In this document: positions 9,323-29,246 of the stretch, one piece after another | Layout: each line of letters opens with the position of its first letter | Numbering within the stretch: the first letter of the stretch is position 1 | Source of the DNA: a virus | Length of the DNA stretch: 30,470 nt | IMG/VR virus record: IMGVR_UViG_3300025132_000187 | Location: 1 to 30,470 of that record | Strand: one strand, 5' to 3' | Translations under genes and position numbers: made by a program | Notes under the pieces: generated by a model | Database searches by the model: none | The model's input: only the letters and a program-made list of their open reading frames with translations | What the model was told of the DNA's origin: nothing

Positions 9323-10546
9323 CTAAAAAGTTGAAGTGGCTGCAGCAAATAAATCTGTTGCTGCCAAGGCATCATCTGACTGACGAAAATAAACTCTGTC
9401 CACACCCGCAACTTCAAACACTCTAAAAGTTTCGACTGCTGCATTGGTAGTTGTTAACCGAACCTGGGTGCCAGCAGTATCATACAACTCTGACCATACT
9501 TGCGATGCGTGACTATATCCCCAAGCGGTGACGGTGTGAGTTGTATTAGTTTGATCTGCTTTCCAATAAACCTGTAAAAATCTCTGATTTTCTGTGGCGT
9601 ATCCCTGTGTCGCAGTGGTGGGAGCAGCAGTTGGCATATTGCCGCCGACTCCCCCGTGAATGTAAACTTGATGGTCGCCTGCCACATTCTTTGGTTGTCT
9701 TGTTCTACCATAGGAAGAATGGATAAATCCTTCTGGTTTTATTCTATCTGTAGGCAAGGCAGGCACTGCACCTATCGTTGCGCCGTTCTGAACTGACCCA
9801 TTGAACCCAGATACATAATCTCTAATTCCACCAGTAGCGATTGTATCTAAATCATCTCCCATCTTCCACCAAGAAATTAAGTCTCCATATGTCGTTGCTT
9901 TGAGCATATTCTTTACGTGGCCACCATTATATAATTCTAATACCTCTGCAGCAGAAAGTTCTTTGTTAAATAAACAAATATCTGCTAATTTGTCTTCGAA
10001 CACTCGTGCGGCGGTTGAGTTGATGCCTCCATCAACTGTAGCACCAATAGCTACAGCTGTGACTGAACTCTTCATACAAACATATCCATTACCATGGCCG
10101 CCCCCTGAATTAGTCGCTGTCTTTGCTGCGGCGGTGATGGTGCCGTCTGTATACATGTTAATACCTGATTGATTGCCTGATCCATCATAGGTCGCCACGA
10201 CGTGATGCCAAGTATTGCTTGTCAACGTTGCAGCATTGGCCTGTGCTCTGATTGAATCCCCCGATAGACTCCCGCCGTTGTCGTAAAGAAAAAATCGAAC
10301 TTCCCCAGAGGCTTGCTTAAAAAGCCACTCAGATTTTGCGGGCCCTGGTCCGTCGCCAGTAAAGTCAGCTTTTGATATAAACGGCCCGTTATCGGACCCA
10401 ACATCACCAACAAACACCCATACCGAGATGGAAAAAGGTTTATCCGATGTATCATCTGTAAAACTAAAGGCATCCTGATCTGACACTAGAACATAGTCAT
10501 TCGTACCATCGAGAACTACAGCATTTAAGTTAACTCGTTTACTCAT
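9323..10546 (-). CDS. LamG-like (lectin fold) virion surface protein with shared C-terminal module
   Basis: A 407-residue protein of two parts. Residues about 8-250 are a LamG/concanavalin A-like domain: LNAVVLDGTNDYVLVSD at the start, FSISVWVFVGD, NTWHHVVATYDGSG, INMYTDG, an ADICLFNKELSAAEVLELYN strand-helix and ISWWKMGD. These are the standard LamG landmarks, including the WHHVAxTYDGS and ELSxxEVxxLYN patterns. Residues about 265-407 form a second module (GFIHSSYGRTRQPKNVAG ... VDRVYFRQSDDALAATDLFA ... TSTF) that recurs as a separate protein in the gene just upstream. LamG domains often bind glycans, so a virion decoration role is likely (inference). Start ATG at 10546 has AGGGGG 6 bases upstream. 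Confidence 0.82.
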   Translation of the reverse strand: MSKRVNLNAVVLDGTNDYVLVSDQDAFSFTDDTSDKPFSISVWVFVGDVGSDNGPFISKADFTGDGPGPAKSEWLFKQASGEVRFFLYDNGGSLSGDSIRAQANAATLTSNTWHHVVATYDGSGNQSGINMYTDGTITAAAKTATNSGGGHGNGYVCMKSSVTAVAIGATVDGGINSTAARVFEDKLADICLFNKELSAAEVLELYNGGHVKNMLKATTYGDLISWWKMGDDLDTIATGGIRDYVSGFNGSVQNGATIGAVPALPTDRIKPEGFIHSSYGRTRQPKNVAGDHQVYIHGGVGGNMPTAAPTTATQGYATENQRFLQVYWKADQTNTTHTVTAWGYSHASQVWSELYDTAGTQVRLTTTNAAVETFRVFEVAGVDRVYFRQSDDALAATDLFAAATSTF

Positions 10547-10555
10547 TGGTGCCCC

Positions 10556-10948
10556 CTAGAACGTTGATGTTGCAGCAAAAAACTCATCATTAGCGGCCAA
10601 GGCGGTGTTCATTCGGAAATATACCCTATCCACACCGAAAATCTCAACGAGTTTGTATACCTGTGCACCGTCTCCTCGAAGAGTGATATTGGTTCCACTG
10701 CTGTCTGTTAGAATAAACCAAACTCCAAATGCGTGATTCCACCCGTAAACGGTTGCAGTTCTGTCAGTGCCGCCGCCACTTGTAGTATCTATCAACATGT
10801 GAAGGTATCTTTGATTTTCTGTTGAATATCCATCTGTAACTGCAGTGGGTAAGTCTGTTGATGTAACAACCTCTGTGCCAACAGCACCTGCAATGTTCTT
10901 TGGACCTCTTGTTCTGCCCCAACTGCTGTGTGTGTGAAATTCTGCCAT
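10556..10948 (-). CDS. Stand-alone copy of the virion surface module
   Basis: A 130-residue protein matching the C-terminal module of the LamG protein encoded next: FHTHSSWGRTRGPKNIAG against FIHSSYGRTRQPKNVAG, YSTENQRYL against YATENQRFL, VYGWNHAFGVW against AWGYSHASQVW, GVDRVYFR in both and an identical ATSTF C terminus. The protein consists of the module alone, so the two genes arose by duplication with gain or loss of a LamG domain. GGAG ribosome binding site 9 bases before ATG. Probable virion surface protein; no enzymatic motif is seen. Confidence 0.75.
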   Translation of the reverse strand: MAEFHTHSSWGRTRGPKNIAGAVGTEVVTSTDLPTAVTDGYSTENQRYLHMLIDTTSGGGTDRTATVYGWNHAFGVWFILTDSSGTNITLRGDGAQVYKLVEIFGVDRVYFRMNTALAANDEFFAATSTF

Positions 10949-10960
10949 TTTAAATCTCCG

Positions 10961-10990
10961 TAAATAAAACTATTATCAAGTATAAATAGT
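10961..10990 (-). terminator. Weak AT-rich hairpin after sugar cassette
   Basis: The minus strand has ACTATT, a 10-base loop, AATAGT, then TTTTATTTA. The 6-bp stem has only one G-C pair at each end, so termination would be weak. It lies between the end of the sugar cassette and the next gene. Confidence 0.3.
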
Positions 10991-11031
10991 TCTTTTGTAA
11001 CTAAACAAACCTATCTTTTAAATATTACAAA

Positions 11032-12300
11032 TCAGCATTCGTAATTAGAGAAAAATTGTTTAAAGGTTGCTACAACTTCATCAATATGGTCGCGAGTGAG
11101 GTAAGGATGACAACCAATAAAGAAAGCTCTATCTCTCAAAGCTACAGTATTTGGCATTTTTTCGTGAGTCCTACATTCCGTATCTCTATATGCCGGCTGT
11201 ACAGAAAGGTCTCCTCCCATGAACGCTCTAGTTTCTATGCCATTAGACTCCAAAGCATTGACCAATTCTTTTCTTGTAAATGGAGCATCCTCTCTAATGA
11301 GTATCGGAAATCCATAAAAAGTGTGCTCTGTGCCTTTGGGTATGGTGGGTAGTTTTATAAATTTATTTTCGTAGTCAATCAATCCATGAATATAATCCAC
11401 CGCGTGGACTGCACGGATGGTATTTAGAGAATCAAGTTTTTTCAACTGCTCAATACCCAAAGATGCTGCAATGTCAGTCATGCGAAGATTATATCCAATG
11501 TTAGTAAAGACGTATCTTTCATCATAGTCTTTTAGGTGACCATCGTTATAATAAAATCTCGGTTTCCCTGGTTCGTATTTTTTCAATCGGCCAAACTCTC
11601 TTATGGACCTTAAAATATCCTCAAGTTCATCGTCATCTGTTAGCACCATACCGCCTTCGCCAGTTGTCATATTGTGTGCAACGAAAAAACTCCAGGCACT
11701 CAACACTCCAAAACTACCAACCATCTTTCCCTTATAAGAAGAACCATGGGCCTCACAACAATCCTCTAAGACTGGTATATCATGCTTTTCAGATACAGAC
11801 ATAATGCCTTCCATATCCGCTGAACACCCCAAAGAGTGCACTATCATTATTAATTTTGTTTTGTCGGTTATTGCTCTTTCGATAGCTTTTGGACAAATAT
11901 TATATGTCTCCATCTCCACGTCAACAAATACAGGGACTAACCCAACTTGCAATATTGGAGAAATAACCGTTGTAAAGGTTGCTGCAGGAACAATTACCTC
12001 ATCGCCAGGAGAGATTCTACCAGCCTGAATCAAAGCAGTGAGTGCTAGGAGATTTGCCGAACTTCCTGAATTACATGCAATTCCATGTGGCATGCCGACA
12101 TAATTCGAAAACTGTTCTTCAAACTTTTTGACTTTTGGTCCTTGAGATATCCACACATCTAGCAACGAATCCAATGCTTGGTTTACCTCATTGTGATCAA
12201 AACACGGAAATCCCACTGTGACTTTATTGCCAGGAGTAGCTTTATTTTCCTTAAAATACTCTTCAACTTTTGCAAATATTTCTTTTTTAAGATCGCTCAT
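11032..12300 (-). CDS. PLP-dependent nucleotide-sugar 3-dehydratase-like protein (RfbH/ColD type, DegT fold)
   Basis: A 422-residue member of the DegT/DnrJ/EryC1 fold I family. It follows RfbH (CDP-4-keto-6-deoxyglucose-3-dehydratase) closely: NSGSSANLLALTAL (77-90), GDEVIVPAATFTTV, GLVPVFVDVEMETYNI, LIMIVHSLG, VLEDCCEAHGSSYKGKMVGSFG, YNLRMTDIAASLGIEQL, FYGFPI and ETRAFMGGDLSVQPAY. The PLP site reads SFFVAHNMTTGEGG, with His209 where aminotransferases have Lys; that substitution defines the sugar C-3 deoxygenating enzymes E1/RfbH and ColD. The Cys cluster that binds [2Fe-2S] in RfbH (after the RDWGR segment) is absent, since that part here (EFGRLKKYEPGKPRFYY) has no Cys. Chemistry may therefore be ColD-like (dehydration using PMP) or something new. 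It is the last gene of the four-gene sugar cassette; ATG at 12300 overlaps the upstream gene by 14 bases, with AGGTGG as ribosome binding site. Confidence 0.88.
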   Translation of the reverse strand: MSDLKKEIFAKVEEYFKENKATPGNKVTVGFPCFDHNEVNQALDSLLDVWISQGPKVKKFEEQFSNYVGMPHGIACNSGSSANLLALTALIQAGRISPGDEVIVPAATFTTVISPILQVGLVPVFVDVEMETYNICPKAIERAITDKTKLIMIVHSLGCSADMEGIMSVSEKHDIPVLEDCCEAHGSSYKGKMVGSFGVLSAWSFFVAHNMTTGEGGMVLTDDDELEDILRSIREFGRLKKYEPGKPRFYYNDGHLKDYDERYVFTNIGYNLRMTDIAASLGIEQLKKLDSLNTIRAVHAVDYIHGLIDYENKFIKLPTIPKGTEHTFYGFPILIREDAPFTRKELVNALESNGIETRAFMGGDLSVQPAYRDTECRTHEKMPNTVALRDRAFFIGCHPYLTRDHIDEVVATFKQFFSNYEC

Positions 12301-13276
12301 TCTTATACCACCTATATGTCCTTTTCAATCCCTCTAGTAAGGGCACACTCTTAGAGTGCCCAAGTTTCTTTATCTTGCTTATATCAGGACACCTTCGATT
12401 AACACTTCCCGCAGGCGCCTCATGTATGAGGAAATCATATTCCTCGTTGTTAATGTCAAAAATCATTTTTGCTAACTGCTCTATACTAACTTCTTCATCG
12501 TCATTTCCAATATGGTATATCTCACCATCTTCGCCATTATACACGACTGCATCGAGTGCGTCAAGTACATCTTCTATGAAACAAAAAGATCTAGTATTTG
12601 ATCCCCCGAATATCTCAAAGGGTCTGATACCGTCAAGGTGTCTTTGTATAAATTGACTTATAACATGTTCATTGCCCATCCTGGGTCCGTAAATATTGTG
12701 AAGCCTTATAATCTTGAACTTATCTATGTTGTGAGATTTTCTGTAACTATAAAAAGCGATTTCTCCAATAAGTTTACTGGCACCGTAACTCCACCTAACA
12801 TTAGTAACATCGTCAATTGTTAATGGGACATCTTCGGGTGTTGGTATTGGAAACTCATCTCCTAAGATCGCGGCGGTTCCTGCATACGCTTCCGAACTGC
12901 TAGTGTAGATAATTTCTGGTTTCTTGTCTTGCTTGGCAACCCACTCTAAAATATTAATCGTCGAGAAGGTGCCTATCTTTAATACACTAGCTGGAAAATT
13001 GTAAAAATTAGAAGTTCCGTTCAAGGCTGCAAAATGATACACTGTATCGAACACATTCATCTTCCAGTTATCCAAAACTCTCTGATCCGAAAGATCCATG
13101 TTTAAATGAGTTACATTTTCATGAGACAGTAGATCTAAGAACTTCTTGTCTTCATTAGGTCTCTTGAAATTGTCGATAATTGTTACTTTATTGTCTTTGG
13201 ATAATTTTTTGGCTAAATGAAAACCTACAAAACCAGCGCCGCCAGTTATAAGAATGTTTTTCATTCTTTCAACCAT
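12287..13276 (-). CDS. NAD(P)-dependent sugar epimerase/dehydratase (extended SDR)
   Basis: A 329-residue extended short-chain dehydrogenase. The N-terminal dinucleotide site is ITGGAGFVGFHLAKKL (about 10-25). It is followed by DNFKRP (the Asp that selects NAD), YHFAALNG near 82, the catalytic TSSSEAY (125-131) and SYGASK (about 163-168; Tyr and Lys of YxxxK), then RLHNIYGPRM and RSFCFIEDVLDALDAV. This matches dTDP-glucose 4,6-dehydratase, UDP-glucuronate decarboxylase and GDP-sugar epimerases; the exact substrate cannot be told. In the cassette it could create the 4-keto sugar that the downstream PLP enzyme needs. Start ATG at 13276 (AAAGGAATGAGAG upstream) overlaps the previous stop by 8 bases; an internal ATG at 13264 is an alternative. 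Confidence 0.88.
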   Translation of the reverse strand: MVERMKNILITGGAGFVGFHLAKKLSKDNKVTIIDNFKRPNEDKKFLDLLSHENVTHLNMDLSDQRVLDNWKMNVFDTVYHFAALNGTSNFYNFPASVLKIGTFSTINILEWVAKQDKKPEIIYTSSSEAYAGTAAILGDEFPIPTPEDVPLTIDDVTNVRWSYGASKLIGEIAFYSYRKSHNIDKFKIIRLHNIYGPRMGNEHVISQFIQRHLDGIRPFEIFGGSNTRSFCFIEDVLDALDAVVYNGEDGEIYHIGNDDEEVSIEQLAKMIFDINNEEYDFLIHEAPAGSVNRRCPDISKIKKLGHSKSVPLLEGLKRTYRWYKNERS

Positions 13277-14066
13277 CTCTCATTCCTTTCTGTACAGTTA
13301 CTCTATATTTTGCATTCTCTTCTAATATTCTTTTAAATAACTTACCTGTTGTATTGCACTGATCAGCCATGTACGCTAGTGCTCTAGTGTCTTTCGGCAA
13401 ACAAACGCCGCCGAAACCTCTAAAGTTGTTGTTACAATCTAGGTACGCATCGTGTATGTGTTTTCTGTGTACGACAGCATTCTTTACATTTGTATAATTG
13501 ACCCCTGACTTTTCACAAAGTTCAGAAAAGTTATTTGCAAATGTTACCAACATTGCACTGTAAACATTGCTAAAATATTTTACATATTCGGCCTCTGCAA
13601 CCCCCAGTTGAACAACGTTCTTTGGGTAAGACCCGTGAGACTGTTTTATCTTCTCGAATACATTCTCATCCTCTGTCCCTATAACACAAAGATCATGATT
13701 CTCTATGAAGTCTGTAACTGCGCACCTTTCTCTCAGGAACTCAGGCACAAAACATATATCATCTCTACCAGTTTCTTCTCTTAGTCTCTCAGTCGTGCCA
13801 GGCTCAACAGTGGACTTTACAGCTATTATCCCCTTATAACCAGCGTTATTCAGTTCGTGAACAACCTTTTCTACAATCCTAGTGTCGCACCTACCAGACT
13901 CCAAAGACGGTGTGGGTACGCAAATATAACATATTTCAGTATCCATAACATTATCAATAGTAGTCCCCATTGCAATATCGTGATACAAAACAGTGTGACT
14001 TAATTTTTCAAGACCCTCTTTGATTGCGCCGCCGACGACGCCTAATCCCATTATTCCTATCTTCAA
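13269..14066 (-). CDS. UDP-glucose/GDP-mannose 6-dehydrogenase-like protein lacking C-terminal domain, TTG start
   Basis: The N-terminal nucleotide-binding site MKIGIMGLGVVGG begins at a TTG codon (14066-14064), six bases after AGGAGG and one base after the stop of the glycosyltransferase. A longer upstream reading would run inside that gene. The protein (265 residues) keeps the family's catalytic set: CVPTPS, VKSTVEPGTT (Glu88), PEFLRE, EAEYVKYFSN (Lys163, Asn167) and GFGGVCLPKD with the nucleophile Cys222. Family members usually have 390-450 residues; here the protein ends shortly after the Cys motif, so the second Rossmann domain that closes over the UDP sugar is missing. It may still oxidise a C-6 alcohol to a carboxylate with NAD, or act on a different substrate. 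Confidence 0.83.
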   Translation of the reverse strand: MKIGIMGLGVVGGAIKEGLEKLSHTVLYHDIAMGTTIDNVMDTEICYICVPTPSLESGRCDTRIVEKVVHELNNAGYKGIIAVKSTVEPGTTERLREETGRDDICFVPEFLRERCAVTDFIENHDLCVIGTEDENVFEKIKQSHGSYPKNVVQLGVAEAEYVKYFSNVYSAMLVTFANNFSELCEKSGVNYTNVKNAVVHRKHIHDAYLDCNNNFRGFGGVCLPKDTRALAYMADQCNTTGKLFKRILEENAKYRVTVQKGMRDG

Positions 14067-14067
14067 A

Positions 14068-15012
14068 TCACACCTCCTGAACGTAAGACGAGGTATCGAT
14101 GTTTTTACCAAGTTTTATTAGGTTGCCATTGGTGTCAATAGGGAAATCCCAGTCTCCATTCAAATCAACCATTTCTTCGATAGATTGAGGATATGAAGAT
14201 TCATCTAAACTAGTGATGTCGGTAACCCAATTATAATACCTATTGTCACTGAGTGCTTCCCAATAGTTACCGTATCTCTTGCCACCACGAACTCTGGCAT
14301 TTGTTCCTGTCTTGTCTGTCAGGATCAAGATCGCAGGAGGATTCCATGGCATGTAGGGTTTCAGTTTTCCAGAAAAATACATATTCATTTTTAAAGTAAA
14401 GTGGTCTTCAAAGTTAGTCTCCCCTGAAAACTTACTTTTATCCATTTCCCAACCCCCTACTTGCTTGGCAAATTCTGTCTTCATGAAAGAATCTCCTGCG
14501 CCGCCGATTCTCCTTGAATTATCAACAGCAAAAGTATTGTCTTCTGTGGCGTAGTGATCAGTAAACGAGGACTGGTGTAGTCTTACTTTTCTCTGCGCAT
14601 CTAGAACAACAGATCCAACATCGTCTCTATCCTCAAACAATTCTACATACGAATTAACCCAACCTTTTCTAACAAATTGCATGTCACCTTGTAGTGGCAC
14701 AAAGTATTCGCCTTCAGTATGCTCTAGTACTAGATTTAAAGCGCCAGCGAATGCATTCATGTGCTCAGTATCTTGATAAAAGTCTACATCTTTTTTGTTT
14801 TCGTTTCTATAGTCTTCTTGGTTGATAACTAACCAACCTCTGTCTTTTAACGTCTCTAGATATTCTTTTGTGCCTGGTTCGGCGGAATTGTCATCAATGC
14901 AAATATATTGGGTGTCTGGATAGTCTTTTGTTGATTCCATCAGTGATTCCGCACAACTCTTAAGGTAAAAGAGTCTATTGTAGTTTATAATTCCGAAAGT
15001 AACTTTGGACAT
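14068..15012 (-). CDS. Family 2-like glycosyltransferase
   Basis: A 314-residue GT-A fold protein. The N terminus VTFGIINYNRLFYLKSCAES is a typical family 2 start; ICIDDNSAEPGTKEYL (about 37-52) gives the nucleotide-binding Asp pair; YFVPLQGDMQFVRKGWV (near 103-119) has GDM in place of the usual DxD metal site; and a later VGGWEM ... ETNFEDHFTLKMN segment resembles the acceptor-side ED motif. It should move a sugar from a nucleotide donor to an acceptor in the host cytoplasm. It is the first gene of the sugar cassette, preceded by a sigma70-like promoter at 15040-15068 and GGAG ribosome binding site. The acceptor (virion protein, lipopolysaccharide or DNA) cannot be told. Confidence 0.83.
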   Translation of the reverse strand: MSKVTFGIINYNRLFYLKSCAESLMESTKDYPDTQYICIDDNSAEPGTKEYLETLKDRGWLVINQEDYRNENKKDVDFYQDTEHMNAFAGALNLVLEHTEGEYFVPLQGDMQFVRKGWVNSYVELFEDRDDVGSVVLDAQRKVRLHQSSFTDHYATEDNTFAVDNSRRIGGAGDSFMKTEFAKQVGGWEMDKSKFSGETNFEDHFTLKMNMYFSGKLKPYMPWNPPAILILTDKTGTNARVRGGKRYGNYWEALSDNRYYNWVTDITSLDESSYPQSIEEMVDLNGDWDFPIDTNGNLIKLGKNIDTSSYVQEV

Positions 15013-15039: not shown

Positions 15040-15068
15040 ATTATATCAATAATTAGAATTTTTTTCAA
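15040..15068 (-). promoter_or_regulatory. Near-consensus sigma70 promoter for sugar cassette
   Basis: Minus strand: TTGAAA (15063-15068), a 17-base spacer, then TATAAT (15040-15045) with an extended TGA immediately before it (15046-15048). Transcription would start near 15033, about 20 bases before the glycosyltransferase ATG. The promoter overlaps the last codons of the bS21-like gene. Confidence 0.72.
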
Positions 15069-15273
15069 GGTATTTTCTAGTTGATTCTTGAGATAATTTC
15101 TTTTTTCTCTCTTTCTTCAACTTTCTAGTTTCTGATTTTGAGATGAATCTGCTTTTTTTTCTAACCTTGTCGATGAGTCCTTCTTTCTTCGTCTTCTTGA
15201 CGAAGCGTCTAATCATCCTCATTTGATCTTCGTTGTTTCTTGGCCTTACATCAAAATTTACTGCTTTTCCCAT
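15046..15273 (-). CDS. rpsU: Ribosomal protein bS21 homologue
   Basis: A 75-residue very basic protein. FDVRPRNNEDQMRMIRRFVK aligns with the conserved bS21 N terminus (acidic NE, then a helix with RRF), followed by KKEGLIDKVRKKSRFISKSE (bS21: K.aGvL.EvRrRefyeKPs) and a Lys/Arg-rich helix KLKKERKKKLSQESTRKY. Length agrees with bacterial bS21 (about 70). In bacteria bS21 sits on the 30S platform next to the anti-Shine-Dalgarno end of 16S rRNA and is needed for initiation on many mRNAs. Phage-encoded bS21 has been reported from marine phages and is thought to replace the host protein on ribosomes. Here it follows the prohead genes by 10 bases, with AAAGGA before the ATG. The sugar-cassette promoter lies in its 3' end. 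Confidence 0.85.
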   Translation of the reverse strand: MGKAVNFDVRPRNNEDQMRMIRRFVKKTKKEGLIDKVRKKSRFISKSETRKLKKERKKKLSQESTRKYLEKNSNY

Positions 15274-23832: not shown

Positions 23833-26800
23833 TTAGACGCTGACATGTGCAAACCCTTTTTTCTTATCAATGACGATCTGCGTATCTACTGCGTCTTTAA
23901 GAGTATCTAGGTGCGAGATAAGGATAACGGTCTTAAAATATGACTTTACCATGTCAATGATTCTCACAAACCCCTCCATGTTATCCTCATCTAGCGCTGT
24001 TCCAGGTTCGTCCAGAATAAAAATATCTGGCTTTGGAAGACTAGAAACCGAGAGCAATGCTAACCTTATTGCCATCGATGCAATGGTCTTCTCAGCACCC
24101 GACCCCATTTCTAACGGTCGAGGTTCAAACTTGGGGTGTTTGATAAAAATATCCAACTTCTTATCCTCGTTGAGAATGAACACTTCAAAGTCGACAATGC
24201 CTGTCAAAATCTTTGCAATCTCTTCGTTTACCACAGGCAATCTATTCTTTATAACATTATAAGAAATACCGTTTGTATGAAAACACGTCATAAATAACTC
24301 ATACGCTGCATATTCTACCCTTAAAGACTCCAACTCTTCCTTGTCGTCCTGTAAGTTCTTGATTTGCTGCTCTACAGACCCAACCTCTCTAAACAGGTTG
24401 TTGGTCTGCTTTTTGCAAGACGTGCACTCTTTCTTTACTTTGTTCGCAATCTTGTCTAGGTTTTGCATTTCACCTATAAGTTCTTCTAAATTTTCAATTG
24501 CTTCGCGGTTATCTTCGTATTGCTTTAATTTCGAATCCAACTTTTCTATGATCGAGTCTTGTACAGCAATATCGCTTTGCCCCTTGTCAATCTTCAACTG
24601 AAGGTTAGTAACTCTTTCGGATAACTCTGTCTTTTTGTCTTTTACTTGCTGGTATCTTTCTAGATAACTTGATACCTTCATTTGCTCTTCAGAACTGTAT
24701 TCTCCGCCGATCATGTTAATCTGTTTTGAAACACTGCTCATAATTGATTGTCTGTCAGCAATCGCTTCCTCAACTATGGACGAACACTCCTCACATAGAC
24801 GATCTTGCTGAGAGACCAGAAGAAACTTTTGTTCTGACGCTTTCTCAAGATCTCTCAGTAAACTTTCTATTGCTTCTTCGCTCTTGGCAAAAGAATCTCT
24901 CTTATCTTGATATTTTTCTATGTCAAACTCTGAAAGGAACTTGGCAATCTTTTCATACTTATCTTTTGACTCTTGAACCTCTGACTTGTTGTCAAGTAAT
25001 TTCTTTTTGAGGTTACTTAACTTTCCAATCGCAGTCTCCTTCTCCATGTTGATGCGGATGGGGTCGATAATTTCTGTTGGAGCAGCGTCAACTTTACCCT
25101 TAATGGTAGCGACCCTTTTCTGGAGTTCTTGTACTTCTCCCTCCATTTGCTTGCATCTTTCTTGATTTTCTTTAAGTATCTCATTCTTTTCGACCAAGAT
25201 GTTAGTTGCTTGTTCGATCTGCTGATCATAATCATTTCCCTCCAGTCTCTTTAAGGCGCCTCGTATATCGGCGGACTCGTCTTTTGCCATTTTAAATTTT
25301 CTATCAAACACCTCTAAGTCGAGAAATTTAGCAAGAATTTCCTTCCTTTTAGTTGACCCTTGGTTGATGAACGTAAGAGAGTCTAGTTGTGATGCCATTG
25401 ATGTCATGAGGAAGTCGTCTAGACTTCCAAAATACTTTCTAATATTATTGTCTGTGTCTTGTCTGGATGTTCCATTCAGACTTTCAGTGTTACCAATTGC
25501 GTCGCTAGAGTAAAAATTGACATCCGTTTTTGCCTCTTCCGTTTCGACACCCTTTAATTTTTTGACGTACTTCTCAGATATACGCTCAATGCTTAGTTCC
25601 TTGTCTGCAATCTTAATTGTTGCTTTGGCAGACCCAACATCCATATTTTGGTTAATCATGTTTAGGTTTTTCCTAACAGACTTGGAGGTCGAGTTATACA
25701 CCGCATACAACAAACTATCAATAATAGATGATTTGCCCGAAAAGTTCTTTCCAAAAATTCCAACTATACCCTCCAGCTTTGTGAAGTCTATCTTATTGTT
25801 GGATCCGTAATTGAAAAGACCATCCCACTCTAGTGACTGCATACTCCAGTTCACATTCCTGTAAACCTCCTCAGTGTCCTCGATAGTCTTGTTCACCTTG
25901 GAATTTAAGGACAACACCTTCTCCATCACGTCATCAGCAACTTCGTAGTCCTCAAGGTAGTCTTTGATTAGTCTATTCTGGACATTGATATTTCTAAGAT
26001 CTTCCTGTCGCGCCGTGTCACTCTCTACATCTAGCGCCTTACTGGAGGCCCTATTCAAGTACGTTATGCTTTCTGGTTTAAACTTAAACTTTGCTATGTC
26101 GACACTTCTACGCATAACGTCGAGTGAGATATTGGAATCTGCGACCAATCTCAATCGGGCGCCGTCCGAGATGTCTGTGTCTGGCAGAGTTCCATCTTTG
26201 TTAAGGTTTATAGTAACAAAAGGCTGTGGGTTCCTAAACGTAATCAACTTGCATGTGAAATCGTCCTTACTGGCGATGTCCCAAAGCAAGTACCCTTTAT
26301 CCAAAGATTCGCCAAAGTTTTGTTGTACCGTCGATCCAGCATATCGAATACGTCCATGGTCGTCTAAGATCTGCGTCTTGTGTATGTCACCAAGGAAAGC
26401 AAAATCAAACTTGTCAAAGATACCAATGTCGTGGTCTCCACCTAGTGTCCAGTTCAAGTCCGTTTTTGATTTGTCAATAGCGCCGTGATAAAGTGCAATG
26501 TTAACCAGACGTTCGTTTGTTGGGTCGACCCAGTTCTCCTCATCGAACACCGATAAAACATTTAAACAAAACCCGCCCTCTAAGGGGTGTTCTCCAGCGT
26601 TCTTAAGCAACACTATACGATCGTTGTCTAGCGCCTTCACAATGGGCGTTATGGCGTCCTGACGGTCACTATTTTTTAAATTCCCGTCATGATTACCTAA
26701 AATGATGTAGGTTGGTGCAATTTCAGCAAGATTAGTAAAGAACTTCCTTGCCATGTCAACAAACTCAGGGGAGATCTGTGTTTTTGTATGCGCGATGTCT

Positions 26801-26928
26801 CCACAGTGAATTATGTAATCCACCTTCTCTTCTTTGAGAGATTTGTATAGTTGTTTGAATACTTCACTGTATTCAAAATGAAATTTCAGATTGCGAATAT
26901 GCGTGTCTGCAATGTGGGCAAACTTCAT
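23833..26928 (-). CDS. Fused SbcD-SbcC (T4 gp47-gp46, Mre11-Rad50) recombination nuclease
   Basis: One 1031-residue polypeptide holds both subunits. Residues 1-230 are the Mre11/SbcD phosphoesterase: DTH (8-10), CGDIAH (Asp44), LGNHD (78-82), YHGA (147-150) and LGDIHKTQ (179-186). About 230-365 is a linker with the capping region. From 366 follows a Rad50/SbcC ATPase with Walker A GKNFSGKS (393-400), two long coiled-coil arms, signature MGSGAEKT (941-948), Walker B IFILDEP (969-975) and H-loop ISH. The likely zinc hook is CEEC (712-715); a second CTSC (835-838) lies in the returning arm. T4 and bacteria encode the two proteins separately. The complex resects DNA ends for recombination-dependent replication and can degrade host DNA. 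GGAGG ribosome binding site before ATG. No frameshift is seen and both halves are intact. Confidence 0.93.
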   Translation of the reverse strand: MKFAHIADTHIRNLKFHFEYSEVFKQLYKSLKEEKVDYIIHCGDIAHTKTQISPEFVDMARKFFTNLAEIAPTYIILGNHDGNLKNSDRQDAITPIVKALDNDRIVLLKNAGEHPLEGGFCLNVLSVFDEENWVDPTNERLVNIALYHGAIDKSKTDLNWTLGGDHDIGIFDKFDFAFLGDIHKTQILDDHGRIRYAGSTVQQNFGESLDKGYLLWDIASKDDFTCKLITFRNPQPFVTINLNKDGTLPDTDISDGARLRLVADSNISLDVMRRSVDIAKFKFKPESITYLNRASSKALDVESDTARQEDLRNINVQNRLIKDYLEDYEVADDVMEKVLSLNSKVNKTIEDTEEVYRNVNWSMQSLEWDGLFNYGSNNKIDFTKLEGIVGIFGKNFSGKSSIIDSLLYAVYNSTSKSVRKNLNMINQNMDVGSAKATIKIADKELSIERISEKYVKKLKGVETEEAKTDVNFYSSDAIGNTESLNGTSRQDTDNNIRKYFGSLDDFLMTSMASQLDSLTFINQGSTKRKEILAKFLDLEVFDRKFKMAKDESADIRGALKRLEGNDYDQQIEQATNILVEKNEILKENQERCKQMEGEVQELQKRVATIKGKVDAAPTEIIDPIRINMEKETAIGKLSNLKKKLLDNKSEVQESKDKYEKIAKFLSEFDIEKYQDKRDSFAKSEEAIESLLRDLEKASEQKFLLVSQQDRLCEECSSIVEEAIADRQSIMSSVSKQINMIGGEYSSEEQMKVSSYLERYQQVKDKKTELSERVTNLQLKIDKGQSDIAVQDSIIEKLDSKLKQYEDNREAIENLEELIGEMQNLDKIANKVKKECTSCKKQTNNLFREVGSVEQQIKNLQDDKEELESLRVEYAAYELFMTCFHTNGISYNVIKNRLPVVNEEIAKILTGIVDFEVFILNEDKKLDIFIKHPKFEPRPLEMGSGAEKTIASMAIRLALLSVSSLPKPDIFILDEPGTALDEDNMEGFVRIIDMVKSYFKTVILISHLDTLKDAVDTQIVIDKKKGFAHVSV

Positions 26929-28102: not shown

Positions 28103-28584
28103 CTATCAGACTTATCCATAATACCTGGTTTTACATTTCCATTCTTTGTATATTCTACAACAAAAGAGGGTTCATTTGCAACAACAAAATCAAAACTTTT
28201 TTGTTTTCCCTTTTCGCCCTTCGAGACCTTTATGCCAACTTGCTTCCTGGCAGATGTTGCGGCGAGCATCTCTGGCATGTGACCAAGCATATTCCAACAA
28301 ACCCAAGACACTATGCCATTGAATCTGGATAAGGTAGATAAAGTCTTCGCTGAAGAAAATCCTGAACGGAACGATTGCAGTGACTGCTCTACAAAAACGT
28401 GCTCGATCTTGTATTCATCGTGCAGATCTTTCAAGCAACTCTCTACGTGTTGTGCTTTGTGGTATATTGTTGGGAATCGGTTCTTGTTTCTTGTGTCCCA
28501 ATACTCATTATATACGCACACCCCGTCTTTATCGAGCACGGTTGCTCCTGTGATGCTGGTTGATATATCGAGTCCTAAAATCAT
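28054..28584 (-). CDS. RuvC-like Holliday junction resolvase / RNase H-fold nuclease
   Basis: A 176-residue protein with the RuvC fold: GLDISTSITGATVLD at the N terminus (Asp6, first metal ligand), HVFVEQSLQSF (Glu66), a helical SSAKTLSTLSRFNGIVSWVC segment and C-terminal MDKSDSWVIAKAG (Asp157/Asp160). It should cut branched DNA before packaging. T4 uses the unrelated endonuclease VII for this job, while many marine myoviruses carry a RuvC-like enzyme. ATG at 28584 forms an ATGA overlap with the J-domain gene, and its end overlaps the primase frame by up to 49 bases. Confidence 0.87.
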   Translation of the reverse strand: MILGLDISTSITGATVLDKDGVCVYNEYWDTRNKNRFPTIYHKAQHVESCLKDLHDEYKIEHVFVEQSLQSFRSGFSSAKTLSTLSRFNGIVSWVCWNMLGHMPEMLAATSARKQVGIKVSKGEKGKQKSFDFVVANEPSFVVEYTKNGNVKPGIMDKSDSWVIAKAGYNLCIVKS

Positions 28585-29246
28585 GTATTTTGCAAAAGAA
28601 AAGAGGCATATCCCTCTATGAGTTTTAATTTAGATTCATTATCTTTTACATGATACCATTCCCAGGCAACACTTTTAGTAATTTCTCCAACTTTGTTGTT
28701 CGCTTCTTGGATTTTTAAATCCAGTTCCTGAAAATCCAAAGGTACTTCATCTGGTATTTCAATGTCCAAAAATATCGCAGTTTCAATTAGTTTGAAATAA
28801 TTTTTGTCATTAACCGCACTGTTAACTTGTTGAAATATTTTTTGCTTTTGCATGTCATCTCTACACTTGTCTGGGTGTGTGACATTTGCTATTTTCTTGT
28901 ACAATTTTTTATACTCTTCTGGTAAAGGATTGTTTTCGATCTCAACTGGTGGTTGCGGTTCCTCCTGGTGCTCTTGTACCTTACTTTTGTTTTGCCTGTA
29001 TTGTCTTTGTTGTTTCGCCCTTTGCGCCGTTTTGGAAGATCTTCTTTCGCTTGGGTTCGCCAGTCCCGCTATTTGTTTAAGTTTATGTTGCATGTTGAGA
29101 TCTTCTAGTGAGTATATGAATTCTTTAAATTGTTTTGAAAAATTACTCATTGCATCTTCGTTAATTTTTTGATGTATCTCTAGTTTTTTTAAAGAAAACT
29201 TAAGTTCGTGCAATTTAAGTTCAAATAATTCCTTACGCTGCTTCAT
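28581..29246 (-). CDS. J-domain (DnaJ-like) protein
   Basis: A 221-residue protein with three parts: a charged N-terminal coiled coil (about 1-58), a basic/Gln-rich linker (SKTAQRAKQQRQYRQNKSKV) and a J-domain-like segment from about 108. There YKKLYKKIANVTHPDKCRDD contains the diagnostic HPD (124-126) between helices II and III, followed by FQQVNSAVNDKNYFKLIETA. J proteins stimulate the ATPase of host DnaK, so this phage protein may recruit host chaperones for folding or for remodelling replication or capsid complexes. Unlike DnaJ, the J domain is not N-terminal and Gly/Phe and zinc regions are missing. TAATG start at 29246 overlaps the upstream stop. Confidence 0.83.
   Translation of the reverse strand: MKQRKELFELKLHELKFSLKKLEIHQKINEDAMSNFSKQFKEFIYSLEDLNMQHKLKQIAGLANPSERRSSKTAQRAKQQRQYRQNKSKVQEHQEEPQPPVEIENNPLPEEYKKLYKKIANVTHPDKCRDDMQKQKIFQQVNSAVNDKNYFKLIETAIFLDIEIPDEVPLDFQELDLKIQEANNKVGEITKSVAWEWYHVKDNESKLKLIEGYASFLLQNT

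Follow-up and report, generated by a model that had tools for sequence, protein, structure and literature searches.

A four-gene sugar cassette, probably moron-like, among the structural genes of a far-T4 marine phage

Why would a T4-like phage carry four genes of nucleotide-sugar metabolism in the midst of its morphogenetic genes? The question is raised by a 30,470-base IMG/VR virus record (IMGVR_UViG_3300025132_000187, positions 1 to 30,470), which we analysed whole and call the window. An earlier sequence-only reading placed a four-gene sugar cassette at 11032–15012, and we found all four ORFs there, intact and on the minus strand. By its genes for Gp23, portal, terminase and an S77 prohead protease, the window is T4-like phage DNA. 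The isolates nearest to its capsid protein (612 aa) are Flavobacterium phage immuto, Microcystis phage Mel-JY01 and Rhodothermus phage RM378, at 40–48% identity. These affinities fit the 'far-T4' group of phages (PMC4360716), so we regard the window as a fragment of a far-T4 phage. There was no close DNA match to it among GenBank phages, and Rfam and tRNA searches of the window found nothing.

In order of transcription, the cassette begins with GT (14068..15012), which encodes a GT2-family glycosyltransferase of 314 aa with a GT-A fold (Pfam PF00535, E = 8e-12; 45.8 bits against a cut-off of 23.3). UGD (13269..14066, with a TTG start) encodes a short homologue of UDP-glucose/GDP-mannose dehydrogenases, 265 aa long (Pfam PF03721 and PF00984; E = 4e-20 for UDPG_MGDP_dh and 5e-17 for UDPG_MGDP_dh_N). 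It is followed by SDR (12287..13276, with an alternative ATG start at 13264), an extended SDR of the nucleotide-sugar epimerase/dehydratase/decarboxylase type (329 aa; Pfam Epimerase, E = 4e-37), and by DegT (11032..12300), a 3-dehydratase-like enzyme of the DegT/DnrJ/EryC1/StrS fold and His-type (422 aa; Pfam DegT_DnrJ_EryC1, E = 3e-105). With strong Pfam matches for all four ORFs, the cassette is not a product of chance. The genes had been described as overlapping or nearly touching. GT and UGD do abut, and the 44-bp overlap is an artefact of mechanical start choice: the start of UGD is most likely the TTG at 14066, immediately 3' of the GT stop, because an AGGAGG lies in front of it, inside the last GT codons, and because homologues of UGD are 264–267 aa long.

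The cassette had also been placed between the protease and scaffold genes. This is true, and its location within a morphogenetic interval is borne out, but four other genes share that interval. Upstream are a 140-aa ORF and a homologue of ribosomal protein bS21 (15046..15273, minus strand; Pfam Ribosomal_S21, 30.0 bits, cut-off 27), and downstream are genes for a putative decoration protein of 130 aa (10556..10948, minus strand) and a LamG/ConA-like putative virion protein of 407 aa (9323..10546, minus strand; Pfam Laminin_G_3, E = 1e-11). An S21 gene is found at the same place, between the protease and capsid genes, in Microcystis phage Mel-JY01 and many relatives.

The original comparison was with T4, but the phage's own clade, in which the interval is already variable, is more telling for the cassette. 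Following the suggestion that the interval be compared in related phages, we scanned for relatives of the capsid protein and obtained 80 loci, of which 21 span the whole interval, with the scaffold gene at one end and S21 or the 140-aa ORF at the other. The cassette proteins have no match in any of these 21, among which L007–L009 are near-copies. In L002, L003 and L008 only 22–25 nt separate the S21 gene from the 130-aa gene downstream of it, and the capsid protein of L002 is 81% identical to the window's. Given this spacing and the uniform absence, the four genes look like an insertion at the S21/130-aa junction, bounded upstream by the bS21 gene and downstream by the 130-aa gene; repeated loss is a less simple alternative. 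A few of 45 relative loci scanned at the interval match LamG, S74 endosialidase-chaperone or depolymerase domains and others carry different genes, which suggests that the interval is a variable adsorption/decoration island. We found no sign that the cassette had moved elsewhere: no DegT of the window's clade is present in ten relative records (a scan without a positive control, in which some records are fragments), although UGD-like genes do occur elsewhere in three. One of the relatives, L346, has a UGD-like gene of 278 aa without the C-terminal domain (L346:8856-9692), at a place that differs from that of the window's cassette.

At the level of sequence, the cassette has a putative promoter of its own. 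The S21-GT junction carries, on the minus strand, a near-consensus sigma70-type site (15040..15068; TTGAAA-N17-TATAAT with the TG of an extended -10) that ends 28 nt upstream of the start codon of GT. No other site in the window has the TG together with 11 or more of the 12 consensus positions, shuffling one strand by dinucleotides 30 times gave 0 sites at the same threshold, and the site is missing from the S21-to-130-aa junction of cassette-less relatives. Also missing from the relatives' empty sites is an AT-rich 9-bp hairpin located 3' of DegT (10966..10993, minus strand), a weak terminator candidate with a fold of -5.3 kcal/mol and a poor T tail. Two other motifs were rejected: the T4 late promoter TATAAATA has one match, on the opposite strand and at chance level, and ACTATTTAT, seen ahead of two genes, shows no excess over chance. 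Its absence at this site from near relatives is as expected of a moron, an inserted phage cargo that drives its own expression, and with the putative promoter the cassette looks 'moron'-like.

All four genes occur together in one other IMG/VR contig (L085, 59.9 kb), where UGD, GT, SDR and DegT are contiguous, with identities of 70, 57, 64 and 68% respectively; elsewhere we found partial sets. L167 has a contiguous UGD-GT-SDR, and L086–L089 have DegT-UGD-SDR, with a portal-like gene nearby in three. As to phage markers, terminase is found only in L167's contig and Gp23 is encoded by the contigs of L086 and L089; the L085 contig has no terminase or Gp23 match, so that IMG/VR is the basis for treating it as phage. 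The L086–L089 phages also have a second short UGD paralogue and Fcl-like and GalE-like SDRs around DegT-UGD-SDR (for example, L086:8001-13777), perhaps a fuller pathway. In a DegT tree, the window and L085–L088 form one clade (SH-aLRT 98), nested in a wider clade (SH-aLRT 100) to which Neptuniibacter caesariensis and contigs of a Methanocellales MAG and a Pacearchaeota MAG also belong; the MAG contigs may be misbinned, and the Neptuniibacter sequence comes from an isolate, on a contig of 2 Mb.

The gene order in Neptuniibacter (L260) and Methanocellales (L259) is a three-domain NDP-sugar dehydrogenase, counterparts of the cassette's SDR and DegT, in that order, and after them an SDR with GDP-fucose synthase as its nearest match. 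Similar cellular sets exist in other phyla, with variation in the SDR that adjoins DegT. These operons support, without proving, the idea that 6-oxidation, SDR and DegT act in one pathway. The cellular dehydrogenases have the motif PERTxEGNA where the phage UGD has PEFLRE, so UGD is an analogous rather than an orthologous partner of the cellular 6-dehydrogenases, a point that counts against the pathway proposed below.

In characterised UDP-glucose dehydrogenases, the UDP-binding domain is PF03720. UGD consists of the NAD-binding and central domains only. Like the UDP-glucose 6-dehydrogenase of PDB 3vtf it has the PEFLRE, KYxxN and GGxCxPKD motifs (GGVCLPKD and KYFSN align; K163, N167 and C222 are invariant among homologues), so that the catalytic Cys, Lys and Asn motifs of that enzyme are present, but unlike it UGD has no Pfam match to the C-terminal PF03720. 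Neither do the five phage homologues that we scanned, whereas the cellular dehydrogenases of L259, L260 and L269 do. The short form is common in viral contigs: we counted 85 genes scoring above 300 bits, the window's own included, with a median length of 264 aa. An SDR is directly adjacent in 49 of the 85, and a strong DegT match lies in the locus in 8. The missing UDP-binding domain, and the fact that phages with a short UGD mostly lack a DegT of the window's type, both count against the pathway. A search of the literature on phage UDP-glucose dehydrogenase and capsid glycosylation returned giant-virus reviews only.

The best characterised PDB match of SDR is the UDP-glucuronate decarboxylase UXS1. 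Its motifs TSSSE and SYGASK (the catalytic YxxxK, and Glu in S/T-S-E) are not specific to decarboxylases, and no equivalog cut-off is approached (PRK11908, 87.5 bits against 294). Across the cassette, no equivalog model reaches its cut-off, again a point against the pathway.

DegT had been called a PLP-dependent sugar dehydratase, and its active site agrees with this. Its best PDB matches, almost full length, are 3bcx and 3bb8 (RfbH/E1, CDP-4-keto-6-deoxyglucose 3-dehydrase), followed by ColD (GDP-4-keto-6-deoxymannose 3-dehydratase, PDB 2gms), which shares the His-type DegT fold and scores lower (302.4 bits for E1, 200.7 for ColD). AHNMTTGEGG aligns with AHHITMGEGG of 3bcx, placing a His (H209, invariant) at the position of the Schiff-base Lys, as in E1. 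DegT differs from E1 in having no DCYC..C..C cysteine cluster: E1 DCYCAPGCDNTC is aligned to LKKYEPG-----, with no Cys, and the cluster is likewise missing from the DegT proteins of L085–L090. It also falls below the NCBIfam RfbH equivalog cut-off (398.5 bits against 423). The 3-dehydratase ColD requires no Fe-S cluster. With a His-type active site and no Fe-S cysteines in its sequence, DegT is predicted, going by what is established for catalysis in ColD and E1, to be a 3-dehydratase that depends on PMP and not on an iron-sulfur reductase, which suggests a ColD-like chemistry; the cassette differs from the ColD setting in having no GDP-mannose genes.

The AF2 model of GT adopts a GT-A fold (pLDDT 73, with low values over the C-terminal third), and VIA-align gives Z of 14–16 to GT-A enzymes; the structure matches are wall- or polysaccharide-type glycosyltransferases and are generic. 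A search of PDB by sequence found no relative. In IMG/VR a single query gave no pattern match and a three-row alignment gave 8 loci; homologues are found in L085, L167 and L169–L173.

The proposal that the cassette could make and transfer an unusual deoxy or acidic sugar holds up to the extent that domains and motifs reveal sugar-synthesis genes that fit together and, with them, a transferase, and we consider that the product is most likely a 3-deoxy sugar. UGD would oxidise C6 of an NDP-hexose, by default UDP-glucose to UDP-glucuronate. SDR, which among characterised enzymes is nearest in sequence to a UDP-glucuronate decarboxylase, would convert the oxidised sugar to an NDP-4-keto sugar. DegT would then remove the 3-hydroxyl in the manner of ColD, using PMP without an Fe-S cluster, and the soluble GT2 enzyme would transfer the product, perhaps after reduction of the 4-keto group by a host or another phage enzyme. 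The window has no 4-keto reductase, which counts against this scheme. Taken with all its steps, as a horizontally acquired, probably self-promoted, moron-like cargo cassette inserted in a far-T4 marine phage between bS21 and the genes for decoration proteins, the explanation is tentative, at somewhat below an even chance.

The fold order has a parallel in the UDP-4-amino-arabinose route (Ugd, ArnA, ArnB, ArnC), in which a 6-dehydrogenase, a decarboxylase-type SDR, a DegT-fold enzyme and a GT2 enzyme take part. This is an analogy only, since the window DegT is His-type and not an aminotransferase and its UGD is truncated. A bolder version of the proposal, which we think improbable, is a 3-deoxy sugar route not yet described, for example from UDP-4-ketopentose, resembling the 4-amino-arabinose route with a dehydratase replacing the aminotransferase. 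Its UGD would work with no UDP-binding domain and its RfbH-type dehydratase with no iron-sulfur cluster, and the sugar would be placed on virion proteins.

The acceptor that we provisionally prefer is a protein of the virion surface, for instance one of the adjoining decoration proteins, at roughly the same level of confidence as the whole scheme. The location, the single soluble glycosyltransferase and the lack of lipid-carrier genes favour a soluble acceptor of virion type, and the presence of LamG, S74 and depolymerase-like proteins in the interval of relatives was counted for this explanation. The two neighbours had been described as putative glycan-binding virion proteins. This is partly upheld, in that the 407-aa protein has a Laminin_G/ConA-like domain and its C-terminal ~130 aa are a domain in common with the 130-aa protein, which is modelled (pLDDT 87) as a beta-sandwich resembling fibre tips and other phage-related proteins; their virion location and glycan binding remain putative. 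By VIA-align the best match of the 130-aa protein is the Bdellovibrio fibre tip Bd2133 (Z 9.1), with phage-related proteins also matched, although Z of 8–9 is only modest. Foldseek alone gave it no significant match (best E = 2e-3, TNF-like), and the neighbouring small proteins received no PHROG names.

A host-type promoter inside a late block is a poorer fit to a virion acceptor, and a sigma70-type promoter would permit early expression. Both points favour a second reading, in which the same cassette would serve during infection to add its sugar to a surface glycan of the host, be it lipopolysaccharide, capsule or another, for receptor masking or superinfection exclusion. We rank it only slightly behind the virion acceptor. 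The cellular homologues sit among other SDR and sugar-type genes, and in T4-like pelagimyophages variable islands of the structural region contain LPS-type genes, among them UDP-glucose 6-dehydrogenase, for which the authors of that work prefer a role in O-chain modification (PMC7029224). Against it, the cassette has one soluble glycosyltransferase and no lipid-carrier, flippase or membrane genes, and decoration-protein genes adjoin it. We think it unlikely that there is no single pathway, with UGD and SDR supplying a uronic-acid-derived or pentose sugar while DegT uses another, host-made 4-keto sugar: the counts of short-UGD genes given above (49 of 85 with an adjacent SDR, 8 of 85 with DegT) point that way, but the four genes are contiguous both here and in L085, DegT-UGD-SDR recurs in L086–L089, and the same SDR adjoins the same DegT in cellular operons. 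Modification of phage DNA is very improbable: phages do have glycosyltransferases that act on DNA (discussed in PMC12619734), but we recognised no gene for base modification in the window, and the structure matches of GT, generic as they are, are of the wall or polysaccharide type.

T4-like marine phages are already known to carry sugar genes in variable islands, and this cassette, with its two enzyme oddities, is a variant on that theme. The islands of pelagimyophages (PMC7029224) and Synechococcus phage RN05-S likewise combine sugar-synthesis and glycosyltransferase genes in variable structural regions, with UDP-glucose 6-dehydrogenase or DegT-family genes present. They are large, and those of pelagimyophages lie between VrlC and gp14, whereas the cassette is a compact set of four genes at an S21-to-decoration site in a far-T4 phage, with a promoter-like site of its own. 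Its interest is that of a compact sugar pathway apparently moving between marine phages, with counterparts in bacterial and archaeal genomes, in which two predicted enzymes depart from the textbook: UGD, a form widespread in phages, does without a UDP-binding domain, and the RfbH-like dehydratase has none of the iron-sulfur cysteines. Close relatives, empty at this site, provide a natural comparison for the role of phage-made sugars.

Three further observations concern other genes. An ORF of 1031 aa (23833-26928, minus strand) fuses an SbcD-like phosphoesterase to an SbcC-like ATPase, where T4 has separate genes 47 and 46; L346 has a counterpart of 1051 aa, directly behind which lies its UGD-like gene. 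A 221-aa ORF (28581-29246, minus strand) has a marginal DnaJ-domain match (28.0 bits against a cut-off of 27.8). In another relative, two consecutive full-length genes for Gp23-like capsid proteins form a tandem pair (L040:4826-8555).
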